Shown here: positions 19,536 through 35,354 of the stretch, in pieces
How the letters are laid out: each line of letters opens with the position of its first letter
Numbering within the stretch: position 1 is the stretch's first letter
Source: Sneathiella sedimenti
GTDB taxonomy: Bacteria > Pseudomonadota > Alphaproteobacteria > Sneathiellales > Sneathiellaceae
Length of the DNA stretch: 64,000 nt
NCBI RefSeq assembly: GCF_017313765.1
Contig: NZ_JAFLNC010000001.1
Coordinates: forward strand, 806,001 to 870,000
Direction of reading: 5' to 3'
Translations under genes and position numbers: made by a program
The notes under the pieces: model-generated
What the model was told of the DNA's origin: nothing
Databases searched by the model: none
Seen by the model: only the letters and a program-made list of their open reading frames with translations

Positions 19536-20158
19536 GCGGTTATCCCGATTTTATGGCCACGCAGAAAATCAAGCAGCGGCAACAGCGGCAGCCCGAGGAT
19601 AGAGAAAAAGTCCCCTTCGACACGGGCAAAAAGATGTGCGCCCAGACCTTCCAGCTGGTAGGCCCCGACGGAGGAGAGAATATCCTCTCCCGCCTCGGCG
19701 AGATAGCGATCAAGGAAAGCATCGTCGAAATTGCGCATGGTCAGCCGCGCCTCATCCACATGCCGCCAGATAACAGACCCACCCTTGGCGACGCAGACCG
19801 CATTGGCGAGCCTATGGGTCTTGCCTTTCAGGCTCAGGAGATGCGCGCGCGCATGATCCATATCCACCGGCTTGTCGAACCAGATATTATTGCAGTCAAG
19901 GATCTGGTCGGCGCCGATGACCAGGGCTTCCGGCGCCTGTCCGGAGATGCGCGAGGCCTTGAGTTCGGCCAGCGCCACCGCCGTATCCGAGGCGGGCGCA
20001 CCGGCACCCCGCATGGCGTGCTTGACCTCGTCTTCATCCACATTTGCCGGGAGAATGGAAAAATCCAGCCCGGCACGCGTCAGCAATTGTGCGCGGGACG
20101 GGCTCTGCGACGCCAGGACAAGGTCCGACCTCGGGGATTTCGCGGGTGTTCCGGTCAC
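19532..20158 (-). CDS. maf: Maf-like nucleoside triphosphate pyrophosphatase
   Basis: Maf/HAM1 superfamily house-cleaning enzyme that hydrolyses non-canonical or excess nucleoside triphosphates. The N-terminal signature LVLASQSPSRAQLLTRAGL and the catalytic VIGADQILD are visible, followed by LSLKGKTHRLANAVCVAKGG. The 208 residues fit the family. It overlaps ppsR and aroE by 4 bp each, so translation is likely coupled. Which Maf subgroup and substrate it belongs to cannot be decided here. Confidence 0.93.
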   Translation of the reverse strand: MTGTPAKSPRSDLVLASQSPSRAQLLTRAGLDFSILPANVDEDEVKHAMRGAGAPASDTAVALAELKASRISGQAPEALVIGADQILDCNNIWFDKPVDMDHARAHLLSLKGKTHRLANAVCVAKGGSVIWRHVDEARLTMRNFDDAFLDRYLAEAGEDILSSVGAYQLEGLGAHLFARVEGDFFSILGLPLLPLLDFLRGHKIGITA

Positions 20159-20988
20159 AGCATTCTGTCCCTGGTTTCTTCCTTGCGGCGGTTATAAAGG
20201 GTAATGATCTGGGCGGCGGTTTCCTCGACCGAGCGGCGCGAGACATCGATAACCGGCCAGTCTTCGCGAGTGCAGAGCTTGCGCGCGAATATCACCTCTT
20301 CCTTGATCCGCTCCCGGTCGACATAATCCGTATCGACCTTCTGGTTGAGGCTGAGCAGCCGGTTCTTGCGGATCTGCGACAACCGGTCAGGACTGGTCGT
20401 CAGCCCGATCACCATCGTCTTTCGGCTGAGATTAAACAGCGACTCCGGCAGCTTGATATTCGGCACGATTGGAATATTCGCCGTCTTGATACCGCGGTGG
20501 GCAAGGTAAAAGGAGGTCGGTGTTTTAGAGGTGCGCGATACCCCAACAAGAACGATCTGCGCTTCGTAGAGGTCATCGGTCATCTGCCCGTCATCATGGG
20601 CCATGGTGAAATTCAGCGCCTCAATGCGGCTGAAATAATTCTTGTCTAGCATATGCTGCCGGCCGGGCAGACGGCGGATTTCCTGCCCAAGGAAACTGGA
20701 GAAGGCTGCCAGCACCGGATCGAGCACCGAAACGCAGGGAACTCCGACACGCTGGCATCCCAGCTCCAGTACATCGCGCATTTCCTTGCTGACCAGCGTA
20801 TACAGCACAAGACCCGGCTTTTTTACAATGGATTCAAGGATATCGTCGAGTTGACGGACAGTCCGCGTCAATGTCCAGACATGCTCGACGGGGGAAATCC
20901 CCTCAAACTGAACCAGCGCGGCCTTAGTCATGGATTGCAGGGTTTCCCCTGTGGAATCCGATACCAGATGAAGATGAAATTCCGACAT
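20155..20988 (-). CDS. ppsR: Pyruvate, water/phosphate dikinase regulatory protein (DUF299)
   Basis: Bifunctional ADP-dependent kinase and Pi-dependent pyrophosphorylase that switches PEP synthase or pyruvate phosphate dikinase off and on. The N-terminus (FHLHLVSDSTGETL) and the P-loop-like GVSRTSKTPTSFYLA at about 149-163 are diagnostic. The 277 residues match the family. In Rickettsia the homologous gene is RP001, and its position beside hemE marks the chromosomal origin in Caulobacter and Rickettsia. Here too it diverges from hemE across a 395-bp origin-like region. Confidence 0.95.
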   Translation of the reverse strand: MSEFHLHLVSDSTGETLQSMTKAALVQFEGISPVEHVWTLTRTVRQLDDILESIVKKPGLVLYTLVSKEMRDVLELGCQRVGVPCVSVLDPVLAAFSSFLGQEIRRLPGRQHMLDKNYFSRIEALNFTMAHDDGQMTDDLYEAQIVLVGVSRTSKTPTSFYLAHRGIKTANIPIVPNIKLPESLFNLSRKTMVIGLTTSPDRLSQIRKNRLLSLNQKVDTDYVDRERIKEEVIFARKLCTREDWPVIDVSRRSVEETAAQIITLYNRRKEETRDRML

Positions 20989-21383
20989 TTTGCTGCGTGG
21001 TTATCCTGTGAGTAATGTGAATAACAGGGATAACATGGCTGTTTGGAAAATCACAAAATTTTTCTCCCCGGTGCGGTTTTTTTTAACCGACATTTGTACG
21101 GCTGTGGGCAAAGAAATGAAGCTTGTCTGAATTACGGGTATATTTTCGCGAATAACCGGACCCAAATGAGTTATCCCCGTAATCCCCGATTTTTTTGTGA
21201 GCCAATCGGTCCTTTCTCACGTAGATATCAACAAATATGTGAAATGCTGGATTTTATCCCCAGAGTTTCTATAAAGGGCGTGGATAGAATTTTATCCCCG
21301 TTACCCACGGCGTACTACAACAACTACCACCTTTTATATAAATATATTATTTAAAGGGATAAGTTTCCGGGAAGGGAATAGGC
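20989..21383. other. Candidate chromosomal replication origin (oriC)
   Basis: A non-coding 395-bp gap lies between divergent ppsR and hemE, the place of the Caulobacter origin (RP001-homologue/hemE). DnaA-box-like TTATCC nonamers occur at 21001-21009 (+), 21025-21033 (-), 21171-21179 (+), 21254-21262 (+, TTATCCCCA, one mismatch to TTATCCACA), 21292-21300 (+) and 21354-21362 (-). The first two form an inverted repeat. A pure A/T stretch near the hemE side could be the unwinding element. I see no GANTC site inside it. Assignment rests on gene context plus boxes; no GC-skew was computed. Confidence 0.8.
21332..21355. other. Putative DNA unwinding element of oriC
   Basis: A run of 24 bases made only of A and T, rich in TATA steps, at the hemE-proximal end of the origin region. 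It lies about 30 bp after the DnaA-like box at 21292-21300 and next to the reverse box at 21354-21362. Such AT-rich stretches beside DnaA boxes are where strands first open. It could also contribute to the hemE promoter. Confidence 0.55.
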
Positions 21384-22421
21384 GTGACAGTTTCAACAAA
21401 TAAGCCCCTGCTGAAAAGCCTGTCAGGGGAGGTGCAATCAAGGCCCCCATTCTGGCTCATGCGCCAGGCAGGGCGCTATCTTCCTGAATATCGTGAAGCA
21501 CGGGCAAATGCGGGCAGTTTTCTTGACCTTTGCTACAACCCGGAGCTTGCCGAGGAAGTCACCCTTCAGCCCTTGCGCCGTTATGGCATGGATGCCGCCA
21601 TCCTGTTTGCCGATATTCTGCTTATTCCCCATGCGCTTGGTCAGCCGCTTGCCTACAAGGAAGGCGAGGGACCGGTGCTTGATCCCATCCGCGCGGCGAC
21701 GGAGCTTGGCAGGCTGGATGTCACCGATATCCATAAAACCCTCGACCCGGTCTATGAGACTGTTGCCCGGCTGAGCCAGTCGATCCCGAAGGACTGCACC
21801 CTGATCGGGTTTGCCGGGGCACCCTGGACCGTTGCGACCTATATGGTCGAGGGTCGCGGATCGAAGGATTACGCCAAGATCAAGCATTGGGCCTATAGCG
21901 ATCCCGTTGGATTCGATGTGCTGATGGACATTCTGGTCGAGGCGACAACGGCATACCTACTGAAGCAGGTGGCCGCCGGTGCCGAGGTGATCCAGATTTT
22001 TGATACCTGGGCCGGCGTGCTTCCCGACAATGAATTCAAAAAATGGTCCATAGAGCCGACAAGGCGCATCGTTGAGGGGCTACGTAGCCAATATCCCGAA
22101 TTACCCGTCATTGGCTTTCCCAAGGGCGTGGGGGGGAACATTATCGACTATGTGAGGGAGACGGGCGTGACGGCCGTGAGCCTGGATACGGGGACACCGC
22201 TCGACTGGGCCGCACGGGAAGTTCAAAGCCTTGTTCCGGTGCAGGGTAATCTTGATCCGATGCTGCTGGTTAGCGGCGGCGTGGCGATGGAGGATCGGAT
22301 CCGGCAAATTATTGATACATTTGTGAAAAATCCCTTTATCTTCAATCTTGGTCACGGGATCGTCCCGCAGACCCCGCCGGAAAATGTCGCCCGGCTGGCC
22401 GAGATTGTCCGCGGCGACTAA
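21384..22421 (+). CDS. hemE: Uroporphyrinogen decarboxylase
   Basis: Decarboxylates uroporphyrinogen III to coproporphyrinogen III in heme synthesis. The signature [19 protein letters not shown] is at about residues 20-38 with the substrate-binding Arg pair, and [16 protein letters not shown] follows near residue 146. QIFDTWAG and the C-terminal [15 protein letters not shown] are also typical. The start is GTG at 21384 after a GGGAAGGGAATAGG purine tract. At 345 residues it has normal length. It is first of the hemE-hemH-hemJ run on the right flank of the putative origin. Confidence 0.97.
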
Positions 22422-25510: not shown

Positions 25511-26485
25511 TTAGACGGTGAAGACTGTCGAACCGGTGGTCTTGCGTCCTTCCAGGTCCTCATGGGCCTTGCGGGCCTCAGAGAGGGGATAGGTCTGGCC
25601 GATATTGACCTTGATGGCACCACTGCCGACCAGTGCCATCATGTCGGCTGCGGATTTTTCAAGCGCCGGCCGGGTTGCGTTATAGGCCATCAGGGACGGT
25701 CGGGTAACATAGAGGGAGCCTTTTGCGCCGAGAATGGCGAGATCGACACCCGTGACCGGCCCGGAAGAATTCCCGAAGGAGACCATCAGACCGCGCGGGG
25801 AAAGACAATCAAGGGATTTTTCGAAGGTATCCTTGCCGATGGAGTCATATACCACCGGAACCCCCTTGCCGTCGGTGATTTCCATGACTTTTTTCTGAAA
25901 ATCCTCCTCCCGATAGAGGATTGTATGGGTGCAGCCATGGGCTTTGGCCAGTTCCGCCTTTTCTTCCGACCCGACGGTACCGATAATGGTTGCGCCGATA
26001 TGTTTCGCCCATTGACAGGCGAACAGGCCCACACCACCCGCAGCGGCATGAAACAGGATGGTATCGCCTTGTTTCACGTGAAACGTTCGTTGCAACAGAT
26101 ATTCCGTGGTCATCCCCTGCAGCATCATGGCCGCCGCGGTCTGGTCATCAATGCTGTCAGGCAGGGTAATCAGGTTATCAATCGGCATGACCCGGGCCTC
26201 TGAATAGGCGCCGATGGGCCGCCCCGCATAGGCCACGCGATCGCCAACCTTGAAGCCGGTGACGCCCTCGCCCAATTCCTCAATAACGCCGGCGGCCTCC
26301 ATTCCCGTGGTTATCGGGAGGGGGGCAGGATAAAGGCCGGTGCGGAAATAGACATCGATGTAATTAAGGCCGACAGCTGTATGGCGCACGCGGGCCTCTC
26401 CGGGGCCCGGCTTCCCGACCGTCACATCTTCCCATTTCATGGTTTCGGGGCCGCCATGTTCATATTGTACGATTGCTTTTACCAT
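25511..26485 (-). CDS. NADPH:quinone oxidoreductase (zeta-crystallin type)
   Basis: Zinc-independent medium-chain dehydrogenase/reductase of the quinone oxidoreductase family. The N-terminal GroES-like part has GPGEARVRHTAVGLNYIDVYFRTG and PITTGMEAAGVIEELGEG. The Rossmann NADPH site is HAAAGGVGLFACQWAKHIG near residue 150. No structural or catalytic zinc cysteines are present, as expected. Its 324 residues are typical. The segment FHVKQ just before the Rossmann motif is encoded by a near-perfect parS sequence at 26070-26085. It is 36 bp downstream of ogt's stop on the same strand. Confidence 0.94.
   Translation of the reverse strand: MVKAIVQYEHGGPETMKWEDVTVGKPGPGEARVRHTAVGLNYIDVYFRTGLYPAPLPITTGMEAAGVIEELGEGVTGFKVGDRVAYAGRPIGAYSEARVMPIDNLITLPDSIDDQTAAAMMLQGMTTEYLLQRTFHVKQGDTILFHAAAGGVGLFACQWAKHIGATIIGTVGSEEKAELAKAHGCTHTILYREEDFQKKVMEITDGKGVPVVYDSIGKDTFEKSLDCLSPRGLMVSFGNSSGPVTGVDLAILGAKGSLYVTRPSLMAYNATRPALEKSAADMMALVGSGAIKVNIGQTYPLSEARKAHEDLEGRKTTGSTVFTV
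26070..26085. other. parS site (15/16 match) inside the quinone reductase gene
   Basis: TGTTTCACGTGAAACG, one base off the universal 16-bp ParB-binding palindrome TGTTTCACGTGAAACA. It lies in coding sequence, where the reverse strand encodes FHVKQ, and is about 4.7 kb from the putative origin and 8 kb from parB. The mismatch is in the outermost base, which usually matters least for binding. Confidence 0.75.
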
Positions 26486-30749: not shown

Positions 30750-30765
30750 TGTTTCACGTGAAACA
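30750..30765. other. parS site 1 in the mnmE-mnmG gap
   Basis: Perfect 16-bp TGTTTCACGTGAAACA palindrome, the ParB nucleation site conserved from Firmicutes to Proteobacteria. Located 14 bp after the mnmE stop, about 9.5 kb from the putative origin. Confidence 0.95.
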
Positions 30766-30788: not shown

Positions 30789-30804
30789 TGTTTCACGTGA
30801 AACA
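30789..30804. other. parS site 2 in the mnmE-mnmG gap
   Basis: Second perfect TGTTTCACGTGAAACA copy, starting 39 bp after the start of site 1, nearly four helical turns. It is thus almost on the same face of DNA, which may help ParB dimers bind side by side. Confidence 0.95.
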
Positions 30805-30884: not shown

Positions 30885-32747
30885 ATGAGCGGATATGATG
30901 TAATTGTCATTGGCGGGGGACACGCGGGCTGCGAGGCCGCGGCGGCTTCTGCGCGCCTTGGGGCAGCGACCCTCCTGATTACCCATAAACTGGAAACCAT
31001 TGGCGAAATGTCCTGTAATCCCGCGATTGGGGGATTGGGCAAGGGCCATTTGGTTCGGGAAATTGATGCGCTTGACGGGGTGATGGGACGCGTTGCCGAT
31101 GCTGCGGGCATCCAGTTCCGTCTTTTGAACCGCCGAAAAGGGCCCGCAGTGCGGGGACCACGCGCACAGTCCGACCGGAAACTCTATCGGCAGGCCATGC
31201 AGGCGGCGCTTGCGTCCCAGGATAATCTTGACATTCGTGCCGCCGCTGTCGAGGACCTGATTGTTCGGGACGGCGTTGTGAGGGGCGTAATCACCGGCGA
31301 CGGTGAGGAAATTCCCGCCGGAAAAGTAATTCTGACCACGGGGACCTTCCTGCGTGGACTTATTCATATGGGCGAGAAGAAGATTCCGGCAGGCCGGATT
31401 GGTGACGCGCCGTCCAATGGCCTCTCCGTTACTTTGGAACGGGCCGGATTTGAGTTGGGTCGGTTGAAAACCGGGACGCCTGCACGTCTGGACAGAAAAA
31501 CCATTAACTGGTCCATTCTTGAAGAACAGCCGGGAGACGAAGTACCGGTACCGTTCTCTTTCCTGACGACGGAGATTTCGACCCCGCAGGTAAATTGCCA
31601 TATTACCGGCACCAGCGAGGAAACCCATCGTATTATCCGGGATAATTTGCATCGGGCCCCGATGTATTCGGGACAGATTGAAGGGACGGGGCCTCGATAT
31701 TGCCCCTCTATCGAGGATAAGGTTGTTCGTTTCGCGGATAAAACAAGCCACCAGATTTTTCTGGAGCCGGAAGGGCTTGATGACGATACGATCTATCCGA
31801 ATGGAATTTCCACTTCCTTGCCGGAAGACGTCCAGATGGCGTTCCTGCGCTCCATTCCCGGACTAGAAAAGGTCGAATGGTTCCGCGCGGGCTACGCCAT
31901 AGAATATGATTTTGTTGATCCGCGGGAGCTAAAACCCACTTTAGAGACGCGTAAGCTCAAGAATCTTTATCTTGCCGGGCAGATTAACGGGACGACAGGC
32001 TATGAGGAAGCGGCGGCCCAAGGCCTGATGGCCGGTTTGAATGCTGCGCGGAATGCCGGGGGCGGGGATGATATCATTCTTGATCGCGCGGATGCCTATA
32101 TAGGGGTAATGATTGACGACCTGGTAACGCGGGGGACAAAAGAACCCTATCGTATGTTTACCTCTCGCGCAGAATATCGCCTGATACTTCGTGCTGACAA
32201 TGCAGATCAGCGCCTGACGGGGCTCGGGATGGAAATCGGCTGTGTGGGAACTGGCCGTGGATTGCAGTTTACGGAAAAGCTGAAAGACCTGGAAAAGGCC
32301 CGGTTGCTTTTCGGAACCCTCAATCTAACGCCAAATGAGGCCCGCCGTCATGGACTTAACGTCAATCAGGACGGCGTTCGCCGGACGGCGGCCAGTCTGC
32401 TTGCCCATCCGGATATTGATTTAGGGGACATTGCCCGTATCTGGCCGGAGGTAAAGGAAATAAAGGCTGATATTCTGGAACAACTTGCCATTGATGCTCA
32501 GTACAGCGGATATCTGGAACGCCAGAAATCCGATATTCAGGATTTCCGCAAAGACGAGGCCCTACAGCTGCCAGAAACCCTTCGCTTTGAGCAGGTTGCC
32601 GGTCTGTCGAACGAAGTACGGCAAAAACTTATTGATGTCCGACCCACGACACTGGGGCAGGCCGCCCGAATTTCCGGGGTAACACCCGCGGCGCTGACGG
32701 CGTTGTTGTCCCATGTAAAGCGCGGCGCGCATCGCCAGCATGGCTGA
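30885..32747 (+). CDS. mnmG: tRNA uridine-5-carboxymethylaminomethyl modification enzyme MnmG
   Basis: FAD-dependent partner of MnmE (GidA). The dinucleotide-binding [21 protein letters not shown] is at residues 6-26. Family signatures are [64 protein letters not shown] and [16 protein letters not shown]. The C-terminal helical tail (to residue 620) binds MnmE. I use the ATG at 30885 with AAGGG upstream, although a TTG two codons earlier is in frame. It overlaps rsmG by 8 bp. Confidence 0.97.
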
Positions 32748-33396
32748 TGTACCTTCTCCTCTCGGCCCGGAGGGGTTCCAGGCGGCCACCAATGTTTCAC
32801 GTGAAACATTGGACCGTCTTACGGTTTATGCGGAGCTTCTTAAAAAGTGGCAAAAAGCCATCAACCTTGTCGGCAAGTCTACCCTGAAGGATCTCTGGCG
32901 CCGGCATATGCTGGATAGCTTCCAGTTACTTTCCCATGTGGATCGAGCAAACGGAAGTTGGATCGACCTTGGGAGTGGGGCAGGGTTTCCCGCCTTGGTG
33001 GTCGCGATTTGCAGTGAATTCGATGTTCACGCCCTTGAAAGTGACCAGCGTAAATGCCTTTTCATGAGTAATGTTTCACGTGAAACATCCGCCAATCTTA
33101 CTCTTCACCGGGGGAGGATCGAGGAAATTACCCCGTTTTCTGCTGATATTATCTCTGCCCGAGCCCTGGCCCCCCTCGACAAACTGCTTGACCTCGCGGC
33201 GCCCTTTGCCCATGACGCGACAGAAATTCTGTTTTTAAAGGGACAAGATGTAGATGAGGAATTGACCAAAGCCTCTAAATGTTGGATTATGGACGTCGAA
33301 AAACGCTGTAGTTTAACAAGTGAAGACGGCTGCATCCTTAAAATCACGGGATTACGCCGCCGATCATCGTCAGGAGAGGCAGAAAATCATGAGTAA
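32740..33396 (+). CDS. rsmG: 16S rRNA (guanine-527-N7)-methyltransferase RsmG
   Basis: Methylates G527 of 16S rRNA; mutation gives low-level streptomycin resistance in other bacteria. The SAM-binding [17 protein letters not shown] is near residue 75, preceded by [12 protein letters not shown] and followed by [10 protein letters not shown]. The 218 residues are typical. Two parS sites lie inside it, and both are read in the frame that gives NVSRET (about residues 18-23 and 111-116). It overlaps mnmG by 8 bp and parA by 8 bp, forming the classical mnmG-rsmG-parA-parB string. Confidence 0.96.
32793..32808. other. parS site 3 inside rsmG
   Basis: Perfect TGTTTCACGTGAAACA palindrome in the 5' part of rsmG, where it encodes part of NVSRET. 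Conserved parS placement in rsmG is known in other bacteria. Confidence 0.95.
33072..33087. other. parS site 4 inside rsmG
   Basis: Perfect TGTTTCACGTGAAACA palindrome in the middle of rsmG, again in the frame giving NVSRET. It starts 279 bp after site 3 and 300 bp before parA. Confidence 0.95.
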
Positions 33397-34204
33397 GGAT
33401 GTTGCAAGTCTTCGAAAATCGGCAACGGCGCGTATTCTGGCCATAGCCAACCAAAAAGGCGGTGTCGGTAAAACCACGACAACCATCAACCTGGCAACTG
33501 CCTTGGCGGCGGTCGGTCAGAGGGTCCTGATTGTGGATATTGATCCGCAAGGAAACGCCAGTACCGGTTTTGGTATCGGCCGCGAAGACCGCGAACATAA
33601 TGTTTATGGTGTCCTGATGGGGACAACGCCCATTCAGACGGCGATACACAAGACAAATATTCCCCAACTCGACCTGGTGCCGTCCACGGCGGACCTATCC
33701 GGGGCAGAATTGGAACTGATTGAGCTGCCACGTCGCAGTCACCGTCTTTATGATGCGGTCTCGGAAGTGCGCGGCGACTATGATTATATCCTGATCGACT
33801 GCCCGCCGTCACTGAACCTCCTGACCCTCAATGCCATGGTGGCGGTACATGCGGTTGTTGTACCGCTGCAATGCGAGTTTTTCGCGCTCGAAGGGCTCAG
33901 CATGCTGATTAAGACGATTGAAAGAGTGCGATTGACCCTTAATCCGGCACTGGAAATCCAGGGCGTTGTCTTGACCATGTTCGACAAGCGGAATAATCTC
34001 TCCCTGCAAGTGGCGCAGGATGTGCGCGATTTTCTCGGTGACAAAGTATATCGGACCGTCATTCCCCGGAATGTGCGGATTTCGGAAGCGCCCAGCCATG
34101 GTAAGCCCGTGCTGATCTACGATCATCGCTGTGCCGGCAGCCAGGCCTATATCCGCCTCGCCAGTGAAGTGATTCGACGTGAACGCCATCTGAACGCAGC
34201 CTGA
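33389..34204 (+). CDS. parA: Chromosome partitioning ATPase ParA
   Basis: Walker-type ATPase that moves ParB-parS complexes over the nucleoid. The deviant Walker A IANQKGGVGKTTTTINLA is near residue 22 with the signature Lys, Walker A' is VDIDPQGNAS, and Walker B is YILIDCPPSL. Residues after the core, VIPRNVRISEAPSHGKP, are typical of chromosomal ParA/Soj. I start at the ATG at 33389, with AGGAGAGG upstream and an 8-bp overlap with rsmG, giving 271 residues. parB follows after 22 bp. Confidence 0.97.
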   Translation: MSKDVASLRKSATARILAIANQKGGVGKTTTTINLATALAAVGQRVLIVDIDPQGNASTGFGIGREDREHNVYGVLMGTTPIQTAIHKTNIPQLDLVPSTADLSGAELELIELPRRSHRLYDAVSEVRGDYDYILIDCPPSLNLLTLNAMVAVHAVVVPLQCEFFALEGLSMLIKTIERVRLTLNPALEIQGVVLTMFDKRNNLSLQVAQDVRDFLGDKVYRTVIPRNVRISEAPSHGKPVLIYDHRCAGSQAYIRLASEVIRRERHLNAA

Positions 34205-34226
34205 CGGGCTGGAATGTGAATAAGTG

Positions 34227-35354
34227 ATGTCAGACGATACCTCAAAAAAGAAACTGGGGCGGGGATTGTCCGCCCTGCTTGGCGACGATGCGGCGACGGA
34301 CTACGCCGATCTCGACAAGATTCGCTCGACCAAGGAAGTGCCGGTGGAGCAGCTGCGTGCCAACCAGTACCAGCCGCGCCTCGACTGGGATATGGAGGCA
34401 CTGGATAGCCTTGCCGCCTCCATCGCCGAAAAAGGGGTTCTGCAACCTATTCTGGTGCGTCGCAATCCGGGCAGCTACAGTGAATATGAGATCGTCGCGG
34501 GCGAACGCCGCTGGCGCGCGGCGCAAAAGGCCCAGCTTCATACTGTCCCGGTCATCATCAAGGAATTGACCGACGCAGAATCGATGGAAATTGCGCTGAT
34601 CGAGAATATCCAGCGCGAGGATCTCTCCCCAATCGAGGAAGCGGAAGGCTACAAACGGTTGATGGGCGAGTTTGACCATACCCAGGAAAGCCTGTCACAG
34701 CATGTGGGGAAAAGCCGGACACATGTGGCCAATATGATGCGCCTGTTGACCCTGCCAGGGTCCGTCCAGACACTGGTGCGGGAAGGGAGTTTGTCCGCGG
34801 GGGCGGCGCGCGCCCTGATCAATCACGAGAATGCAGAAAAGCTCGCGAGGAAGATCGTCGACGAGGGATTGAGTGTCCGGGCCGTTGAAAAACTGGTAAA
34901 AAAGGGCGACAAAGCGGATCAGGATACGACGACACGGCCGCGCACCGCCAAGTCTTCCCGGATGGAAAAGAGCGCAGATGTGCGGGAACTTGAGGATGAT
35001 CTCACCAATGCGATTGGTATGTCGGTGGAGATCAATCACTTTGCCGATGGTCGGGGCACGGTGACCATCCATTACGGAAATCTCGACCAACTGGATGATG
35101 CCTGCCGTCGCCTGACACGGGAACCACTGCCGACACTTCATGACTCCAGGGAAGAAGACCCGATCGAGGAAGGGGATGACCTTAGCGATGAGTTTGACGC
35201 CTTTCAAAAAGACGCCGACGCTGAAGACAACGCGCTGGAAGAGACCCCGGTCGATCCCGCTCCTGAAAAACCGGACGACAAGGATGACGGTGAGCCCGAA
35301 TATGATTACGATGATGAAATCAAGGGCGCCCTTGGCGACGCGCTGAAAGAGTAA
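34227..35354 (+). CDS. parB: Chromosome partitioning protein ParB with acidic C-terminal tail
   Basis: CTP-dependent DNA clamp that loads at parS. The N-terminal KKKLGRGLSALLGDD carries the ParA-activating Arg/Lys segment. The CTPase domain has QYQPR, the GERRWRAAQKA box and ENIQREDLSPIEEAEGYKRL. The helix-turn-helix is in SQHVGKSRTHVANMMRLLTLP. The C-terminal dimerisation domain ends near DQLDDACRRL (about 297). After that, about 78 extra residues are strongly acidic (32 Asp/Glu, 7 Lys/Arg) and probably disordered. Most ParB proteins stop near residue 290-300. The ATG at 34227 is preferred over a GTG one codon before. Confidence 0.97.
   Translation: MSDDTSKKKLGRGLSALLGDDAATDYADLDKIRSTKEVPVEQLRANQYQPRLDWDMEALDSLAASIAEKGVLQPILVRRNPGSYSEYEIVAGERRWRAAQKAQLHTVPVIIKELTDAESMEIALIENIQREDLSPIEEAEGYKRLMGEFDHTQESLSQHVGKSRTHVANMMRLLTLPGSVQTLVREGSLSAGAARALINHENAEKLARKIVDEGLSVRAVEKLVKKGDKADQDTTTRPRTAKSSRMEKSADVRELEDDLTNAIGMSVEINHFADGRGTVTIHYGNLDQLDDACRRLTREPLPTLHDSREEDPIEEGDDLSDEFDAFQKDADAEDNALEETPVDPAPEKPDDKDDGEPEYDYDDEIKGALGDALKE

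Follow-up and report, generated by a model that had tools for sequence, protein, structure and literature searches.

A candidate variant DnaA-trio array in the ppsR-hemE replication origin region of Sneathiella sedimenti

We analysed a window of 64,000 nucleotides of the Sneathiella sedimenti genome (assembly GCF_017313765.1, contig NZ_JAFLNC010000001.1, positions 806,001 to 870,000), in which an initial annotation, made from the sequence alone, had proposed the 395-bp gap between the divergent genes ppsR (minus strand) and hemE (plus strand) as a chromosomal replication origin. The gap is almost certainly the origin (oriC) of this genome, and we consider it probable (about 0.8) that this origin holds an unwinding module similar to the basal unwinding system (BUS) of Bacillus subtilis, built on a variant spelling of the DnaA-trio. 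The location of the origin is itself ordinary, being the context known from Caulobacter and Rickettsia; the surprise rests in the spelling of the trios and its possible cause, and little in the place. The place, the strand switch in GC skew, the conservation of the DnaA boxes, the periodicity of the footprint, the residue difference in DnaA and the contrast between classes were computed directly, and from these sequences we infer that DnaA binds the gap and unwinds it, and that a tyrosine or phenylalanine at residue 187 of DnaA is the cause of a free middle base in the trio. The features at the centre of this reading are as follows:

20989..21383, no strand: presumed oriC, intergenic between ppsR and hemE; 395 bp, 41% GC; assigned from the skew minimum, the box density and a multi-genome alignment of the gap
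21315..21329, minus strand (the strand we take to be bound): candidate array of variant DnaA-trios; CTA CAA CAA CTA CCA on the top strand, 3'-GAT GTT GTT GAT GGT-5' on the bound strand
21332..21355, no strand: pure A/T run of 24 bp, predicted unwinding element; the corresponding position is A/T-rich in the 23 Sneathiella genomes aligned
21292..21300, plus strand: DnaA box B8 TTATCCCCG, abutting B9; CCCC at 21296-21299 invariant in 23/23 genomes
21301..21309, plus strand: DnaA box B9 TTACCCACG, beside the trios; TTATCCACA in 7/23 and TTATTCACA in 4/23 genomes

The ppsR-hemE gap was extracted and aligned in 23 Sneathiella genomes, the window's own included, and in one genome of a second genus, which supplied the 24th gap (together the Sneathiella group); below, G, L and C numbers are our handles for genomes, loci and contigs. 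Of 80 named loci (the best 80 of 590), 69 have hemE and ppsR in divergent arrangement, while the other 11 had no hemE in the stretch examined, some of them at contig ends; in a draw of genomes from the class the arrangement was seen in 16 of the 18 loci with a ppsR match. In that draw ppsR was found in 20 of 32 genomes, including the genome under study and one congener; the 12 genomes without a ppsR match and the two loci without a divergent hemE were excluded. We also dropped L018 (its contig stops before hemE) and the fragment L034, genome G138 got no locus, and the named loci L124, L125, L126, L128 and L129 were removed as presumed duplicates of genomes already in the set.

Across the genomes, positions 21316-21330 read as five NAC triplets, AC being the fixed part and the remaining base free to vary. 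Counted by the Fitch method on a tree of the PpsR and HemE proteins, the five N columns changed 3, 4, 3, 5 and 10 times and the ten A/C columns 0, 0, 0, 0, 1, 0, 0, 0, 3 and 1 times, against a mean of 4.69 over the gap, and the array gives the strongest three-phase contrast among 381 windows of the gap. Boxes B8 and B9, each with two mismatches, face the array across spacers of 14 and 5 nt; the combination of a box (at most 2 mismatches), 3-16 nt and five CNA triplets is unique to the gap among 450,001 bases containing 1162 boxes. The A/T run that had been described on the hemE side was found again, at full length, beyond the array. When the rule was relaxed to a box with at most 3 mismatches and at least four of five CNA triplets, it was matched in 21/24 gaps of the Sneathiella group and in 19/64 gaps of other Alphaproteobacteria, and on the other strand in none of either set; shuffles of each set lead one to expect 0.2. 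Without the box requirement, the pattern AC.AC.AC.AC occurs on the plus strand in 23/24 gaps of the Sneathiella group, 18/64 of other Alphaproteobacteria and 5/16 of the class draw, and on the minus strand in 0, 0 and 0 of the same three sets (shuffles 0.10, 0.45 and 0.05); eight control dinucleotides put in place of AC reached at most 7/24 (AA), 5/64 and 1/16.

The array differs from the published trio in its middle base. The middle-adenine rule (at least three NAN) holds inside the array in 1/23 genomes, the window's own not among them. The published (.A.){3,} rule is matched somewhere in the gap in 20/23 genomes, compared with 9.3 expected in shuffles; canonical trios elsewhere in the gap were nevertheless rejected as the element, since their most shared place, at a T run, is common to only 7/23 genomes. 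Searching for 3'-NAN-5' behind boxes gave no separation of the strands, neither in the Sneathiella group (24 plus, 24 minus and 16 shuffled, of 24) nor in the other Alphaproteobacteria (38 plus, 31 minus and 29.2 shuffled, of 64). By analogy the array may well work like BUS, yet we do not file it as a canonical member, because the middle-adenine rule is matched in a single one of the 23 arrays and no conserved canonical array is present elsewhere in the gap.

On the presumed bound strand, G and T would be the fixed bases and the base between them T, A or G, without a fixed middle adenine; this can be written 3'-GNT-5' and equally 3'-TGN-5'. Two registers are compatible with this: in 3'-GNT-5' the middle pocket would be relaxed, while in 3'-TGN-5' the fixed pair would be captured and the third base left free, a counterpart of the B. 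subtilis pattern displaced by one base. In B. subtilis, G of the trio is reported to be captured by Arg202 and Glu228 and A by Asn187 (with Glu183), the third base facing away; Asn187 makes its contact with the middle A through the amino group of that base, and C in place of this A is tolerated, while T or G impair (PMC10721633). We propose that the spelling of the array might be caused by the pocket residue equivalent to Asn187, which is Tyr or Phe in most Alphaproteobacteria. With B. subtilis numbering, mapped through alignment to the BUS structure chain 8btg (with which Sneathiella DnaA can be aligned almost from end to end), residue 187 is Tyr/Phe in 22/22 DnaAs of the Sneathiellaceae (18 Y, 4 F; a set that excludes one partial gene and one non-hit), in 23/29 named Alphaproteobacteria (the other six having V, V, V, L, M and A), in 17/18 of the class draw (one R) and in one further alphaproteobacterium, in total 63/70 non-identical DnaAs. 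The 25 DnaAs read from other classes of the phylum have N at this position in 10 cases, T in 6, Q in 4, A in 3 and S in 2, and an aromatic residue in none. Of the remaining pocket residues, Glu228 and Ile190 are retained in 22/22 Sneathiellaceae, where Ile193 is replaced by Leu and Arg202 by Lys, as Asn187 is by Tyr/Phe; in Sneathiella DnaA (protein P0001) the residue equivalent to 187 is Tyr195.

A contrast was provided by the class of genome G063, in which DnaA has Asn187 in 30/30 cases (30 loci of 31 genomes). A box with a 5/5 [CT].A array, a pattern that fixes the two outer bases and leaves the middle free (one site per genome, that with the fewest box mismatches), stands beside dnaA in 19/30 of these loci and in 0/120 shuffled flanks. 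On the bound strand these arrays carry A in the middle of 38 triplets, C in 54, T in 3 and G in 0, that is, mostly one of the two bases accepted by Asn187 in B. subtilis. Under the same rule, 19/104 alphaproteobacterial gaps have 5/5 arrays, and there the middle base is T in 47, A in 29, G in 19 and C in 0 triplets; because a looser count of AC.AC.AC in Alphaproteobacteria finds top-strand G in 3/221, a middle C on the bound strand is to be called rare in them, and not absent. Whether the trio spellings of different clades co-evolve with residue 187 (Asn with a middle A or C; Tyr/Phe with T, A or G and no C in 5/5 arrays) is, judged from these sequences, an evenly balanced question. An alternative, to which we give a real but smaller chance, is that residue 187 plays no part in freeing the middle base, which would reflect either plain drift that is tolerated or a 3'-TGN-5' register in which other pocket residues decide. 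It is favoured by the adjacency of the fixed bases T and G in Alphaproteobacteria, and by positions 202 and 196, which also differ from B. subtilis (both are Lys in 22/22 Sneathiellaceae, and 202 is Lys in 29/29 named Alphaproteobacteria as well). However, a middle C in 0/95 bound-strand triplets of Alphaproteobacteria versus 54/95 in the Asn187 class is a directed difference and not plain drift.

Several results tell against the proposed module and its code. Half of the arrays in other Alphaproteobacteria (9/18) lack a good box within 16 nt and only 4/16 gaps of the class draw reach four of five CNA triplets, and because of both the clean box-array module is strongest in Sneathiella. Within the Alphaproteobacteria, at least four of five triplets accompany an aromatic residue 187 in 16/23 cases and another residue in 2/6, which is not significant (P = 0.16). 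In a class with mostly Thr187 (23/25), an array near dnaA was found in 1/25 loci, probably by chance, and a scan of 25 dnaA loci of other classes for CNA arrays gave 1 match; Lys202 is present in 14/25 DnaAs of other classes too. The contrast class was spotted after the fact, when box neighbourhoods were read by eye (in 9 loci, later extended to 30), the code contrast involves few independent lineages (Alphaproteobacteria, one Asn187 class, and B. subtilis from the literature), and the genomes are related and their triplets non-independent, so that Fisher P values overstate it.

Separate observations were made on the arrays of other groups. Eleven gaps of the Sphingomonadales type (L156, L161, L165, L168, L169, L173, L177, L180, L181, L184 and L186) lack AC[AT]AC[AT]AC, and several of them have CATC-like repeats behind CCACAGG; V or M stands at residue 187 in each of the four DnaAs of Sphingomonadales type examined (L228-L231). 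In the class of G063, arrays of mixed CTA/TGA (bound strand GAT/ACT) lie by dnaA, e.g., in L247, L252, L254, L257, L312 and L319, and L254 and L257 have two arrays each in the same dnaA flank.

The array stands in a conserved arrangement of DnaA boxes, which in the 24-gap alignment runs B1-B3 (minus), B5-B6 (plus), B7, B8-B9, array, A/T run and B10 (minus). In addition to B8 and B9 the boxes are:

21007..21015, minus strand: DnaA box B1 TTACTCACA, abutting B2; the column reads TTATTCACA in 6, TAATCCACA in 5, TTATCCACA in 4 and TTACTCACA in 3 of 23 genomes
21016..21024, minus strand: DnaA box B2 TTATTCACA, abutting B1 and B3; TTATTCACA in 12, TTATCCACA in 4 and TTATTCACG in 4 of 23
21025..21033, minus strand: box B3 TTATCCCTG, C at position 7; TTATCCCTG in 22/23, the best conserved 9-mer of the gap
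21171..21179, plus strand: box B5 TTATCCCCG, C at position 7; TTATCCCCR in 23/23
21180..21188, plus strand: box B6 TAATCCCCG, abutting B5; conservation 0.79
21254..21262, plus strand: box B7 TTATCCCCA; TTATCCCCA in 14/23, the remainder other box-like 9-mers
21354..21362, minus strand: box B10 TTATCCCTT, beyond the A/T run as seen from the array; 21/23 genomes read TTATCCC and two further letters here

The six TTATCC-type boxes of the initial annotation were all recovered, with hexamers at 21001(+), 21028(-), 21171(+), 21254(+), 21292(+) and 21357(-), and their endings (TGT, CTG, CCG, CCA, CCG and CTT) are, as it had remarked, not CACA, none being ACA; further box-like 9-mers at 21007, 21016, 21180 and 21301 adjoin other boxes. 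The inverted repeat in which two of the six had been placed is present in imperfect form; its arm box at 21001(+) is kept in only 3/23 genomes, and what is conserved are the overlapping boxes on the minus strand. A perfect TTATCCACA occurs in the gap of 12/23 genomes, comprising 11/11 of the more distant group (L022-L032) and L021, and was not found in the gap of the window genome or of its ten other nearest relatives; B3 and B5 are more constant across the genus than any TTATCCACA box. The suggestion of a variant-box preference in the DnaA of this lineage was abandoned as the main explanation: domain IV of DnaA keeps the recognition segment GGRDHTTV unchanged in alignment with Escherichia coli and B. 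subtilis, and the perfect box is present in those 12 gaps and, in the window's genome, at two sites upstream of dnaB. A shared C at position 7 has been stated for weak ATP-DnaA boxes of Helicobacter pylori, E. coli and Caulobacter crescentus (PMC8235120), the weak boxes of the latter being written KMRTCCCSM. Because domain IV is unchanged and C at position 7 is reported from weak boxes, the simplest reading is that the position-7-C boxes are predicted weak ATP-DnaA sites held by selection, with DnaA itself unchanged.

A second place with such boxes lies between rplI (L9) and dnaB (L063 3018-3059, corresponding to G000 C4:225617-225658), where three boxes fall within 42 bp, two of them perfect and arranged as a palindrome, the third TTATCCCCG. 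A similar box palindrome (at most 3 mismatches) is present in 8/24 genomes of the genus, irrespective of gene context. The boxes upstream of dnaB could possibly represent a site like DARS (DnaA-reactivating sequence) or DnaA control of the helicase gene.

Taking these elements together, we suggest that DnaA-ATP would load on two opposed groups of boxes, B1-B3 on the minus strand at the left and B5-B9 on the plus strand at the right, with boxes of the TTATYCACA type as the stronger sites and those with C at position 7 as weak ones. From the abutting B8 and B9 the DnaA oligomer might extend onto the minus strand of the array, where the AAA+ domain would capture bases of each trinucleotide, and the A/T run beyond would then open, as in BUS, for which the path of the DnaA-ATP oligomer from box to trio, the capture of bases and the opening have been published (PMC6669920, PMC8287927, PMC10721633). 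The layout resembles BUS in its tandem boxes that face opposite-strand trinucleotides within 16 bp, followed by A/T-rich DNA; unlike BUS, whose consensus is 3'-GAT-5', the middle base is no conserved adenine and Asn187 of the pocket is replaced by Tyr/Phe. The eTrio of Thermotoga maritima is likewise described as trinucleotide repeats on the bound strand with a cluster of boxes alongside, but its three repeats are all TAG, with a middle A, whereas the Sneathiella array reads TNG (PMC10316083). The same source states that the TAG repeats work most likely by recruitment of a single-stranded duplex unwinding element (ssDUE). For Sneathiella an ssDUE recruitment in the style of E. coli, in which the T-rich strand is held by DnaA looped from the boxes and no filament extends from B9, appears unlikely, though it deserves weighing: the bound strand is T-rich (TTGTTG), and the left and right box groups are oppositely oriented. 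An opposed orientation of the two box groups is also a feature of oriC of E. coli. Against this, a periodicity of 3 nt directly beside a box is the signature of BUS; both models use the same domain of DnaA, and the sequence alone is indecisive between ssDUE and filament. On balance a BUS-like function of the array is, from its sequence features, what we hold to be probable.

CAA repeats are known to act as translation enhancers, and the NAC array might instead be a 5' leader element of hemE that does not bind DnaA. Its distance to the hemE start (54 nt in the window, 53-62 nt in the 23 arrays of the Sneathiella group) would suit such an element as well and to that extent counts against a role in unwinding. 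Elsewhere the distance is variable, 22-212 nt in the 18 arrays of other Alphaproteobacteria and 38-255 nt in the five of the class draw (hemE starts in these two sets estimated from alignment), and a box (at most 2 mismatches) ends 0-16 nt upstream of the array in 21/23, 9/18 and 3/5 cases, compared with random expectations of 4.9, 2.1 and 0.8. The layout of box, array and A/T-rich DNA occurs, moreover, beside dnaA in the class of G063. We regard a leader element as improbable, and a BUS-like array remains the reading that we prefer.

The gap itself is read as oriC because of the skew minimum, the density of boxes, the Cori-type gene context and the conservation within the genus. It corresponds to 826,989-827,383 of its own contig, in a genome of 3.58 Mb and 8 contigs, and its 41% GC compares with mostly 51-60% across the window. 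It is bounded, as had been annotated, by:

20155..20988, minus strand: ppsR-type gene, left boundary; Kinase-PPPase family PF03618, COG1806/RP001/CC_0001 type
21384..22421, plus strand: hemE, right boundary; GTG start at 21384, family match TIGR01464

In the family search the ppsR-type protein scored above the cut-off of NF003742 and under that of the PpsR equivalog model. GC skew, computed on sampled stretches, is negative in 14/14 segments left of the gap and positive in 8/8 right of it on its own contig (22 segments, two overlapping); over a joined stretch of 190 kb the cumulative minimum of -1875 lies at 826,500, and it is flat (at most 15 units over 825,500-828,000), the gap falling inside. 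In two single-contig congeners, G002 and G008, the skew is negative in the sample at 20-40 kb and positive in that at 40-60 kb; further along it is positive in the samples between 200 kb and 1.97 Mb and negative in all eight samples taken between 2.2 Mb and the end of the contig. A slightly negative sample at 60-80 kb in G002 is an exception. The fine minimum of G002, at 36-38 kb, is at the gap; that of G008 lies at 44 kb, about 8 kb from it, and this, together with a slightly positive sample at 0-20 kb in G008, speaks against an origin placed exactly here. When 450,001 sampled bases of the own contig were scanned in overlapping windows of 400 bp (4437 in all), the gap was the densest place for TTATCC, with 6 sites against 4 at the next distinct locus, and it holds five sites of TTATCCC[CT], of which windows elsewhere never contain more than one. 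In the whole genome of 3.58 Mb TTATCCMCR occurs 93 times and the reversed control pattern 66 times; three of the 93 sites lie within 130 bp at the gap, and the one other triple is that within 42 bp upstream of dnaB. Skew and box conservation had been set beforehand as the tests of the proposed origin; on the sampled stretches the minimum was found at the gap in the own contig and in G002, and in relatives with the same gene order B5 and B3 are conserved as listed, which bears the proposal out. An origin at or near dnaA (C1:793742, 33 kb to the left), with the gap merely a regulatory region with DnaA boxes, is highly improbable, for although a TTATCCACA lies about 750 bp from dnaA and there is a secondary skew dip at 792 kb, the skew is deeper at 826.5 kb (-1875) than at 792 kb (-1739), the cumulative skew declines from 6 to 38 kb in G002, whose contig starts at dnaA, and from 10 to 44 kb in G008, and the stretch around dnaA (780,000-799,999) contains no window with a box cluster like that of the gap.

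The origin of Caulobacter, identified experimentally and bounded by hemE/COG1806 (PMC1914354), lies in the same gene context, as had been pointed out for this gap. The presumed Sneathiella origin is similar to Cori of C. crescentus and to the origin of Rickettsia prowazekii, as these are described in that source, in its flanking genes, a length of about 400 bp, several DnaA boxes and an A/T-rich segment. Unlike Cori, as compared by its published description, the gaps of the Sneathiella group contain neither the CtrA site TTAA-N7-TTAA (0/24) nor a strict site for integration host factor (IHF; WATCARNNNNTTR, 0/24), a dissimilarity that does not favour the reading, and no GANTC is conserved throughout the genus in the gap alignment. 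A control of the origin by CtrA, GANTC or IHF was rejected on these searches of the 24 gaps, and because CtrA and IHF sites are found in none of them, the gap is, by its sequence, an origin at the place of Cori but not a CtrA-gated Cori.

In the neighbourhood, parAB and four perfect copies of TGTTTCACGTGAAACA, which we take to be the parS motif, sit 9-14 kb right of the gap. The four perfect sites and one with a single mismatch (26070-26085, 30750-30765, 30789-30804, 32793-32808 and 33072-33087) surround mnmG and rsmG, two of them within the reading frame of rsmG, and adjoin a ParA-type gene (33320-34204) and parB (34224-35354), both assigned by family matches. Four TTATCC hexamers inside mnmG (31633-31741) are among the next densest spots after the gap and are probably a chance cluster in coding sequence.

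It has long been asked how a single initiator can recognise origins that differ so widely. A survey of 2021 reports BUS elements in 85% of origins, with a program that required three NAN motifs, and its authors suspected deviant trios without a middle adenine (PMC8287927). We did not find the variant trio spelling or its link to a residue in print, in a search of open-licence PMC articles that excluded preprints and covered few subscription journals. The origins of Sneathiella and of the contrast class supply a concrete deviant trio spelling together with a candidate residue that could explain it. If true, this would mean that origin opening follows a protein-DNA code that can be read, and it would account for part of the origins without middle-adenine trios, and it would aid in finding and dissecting alphaproteobacterial origins via their own unwinding module.
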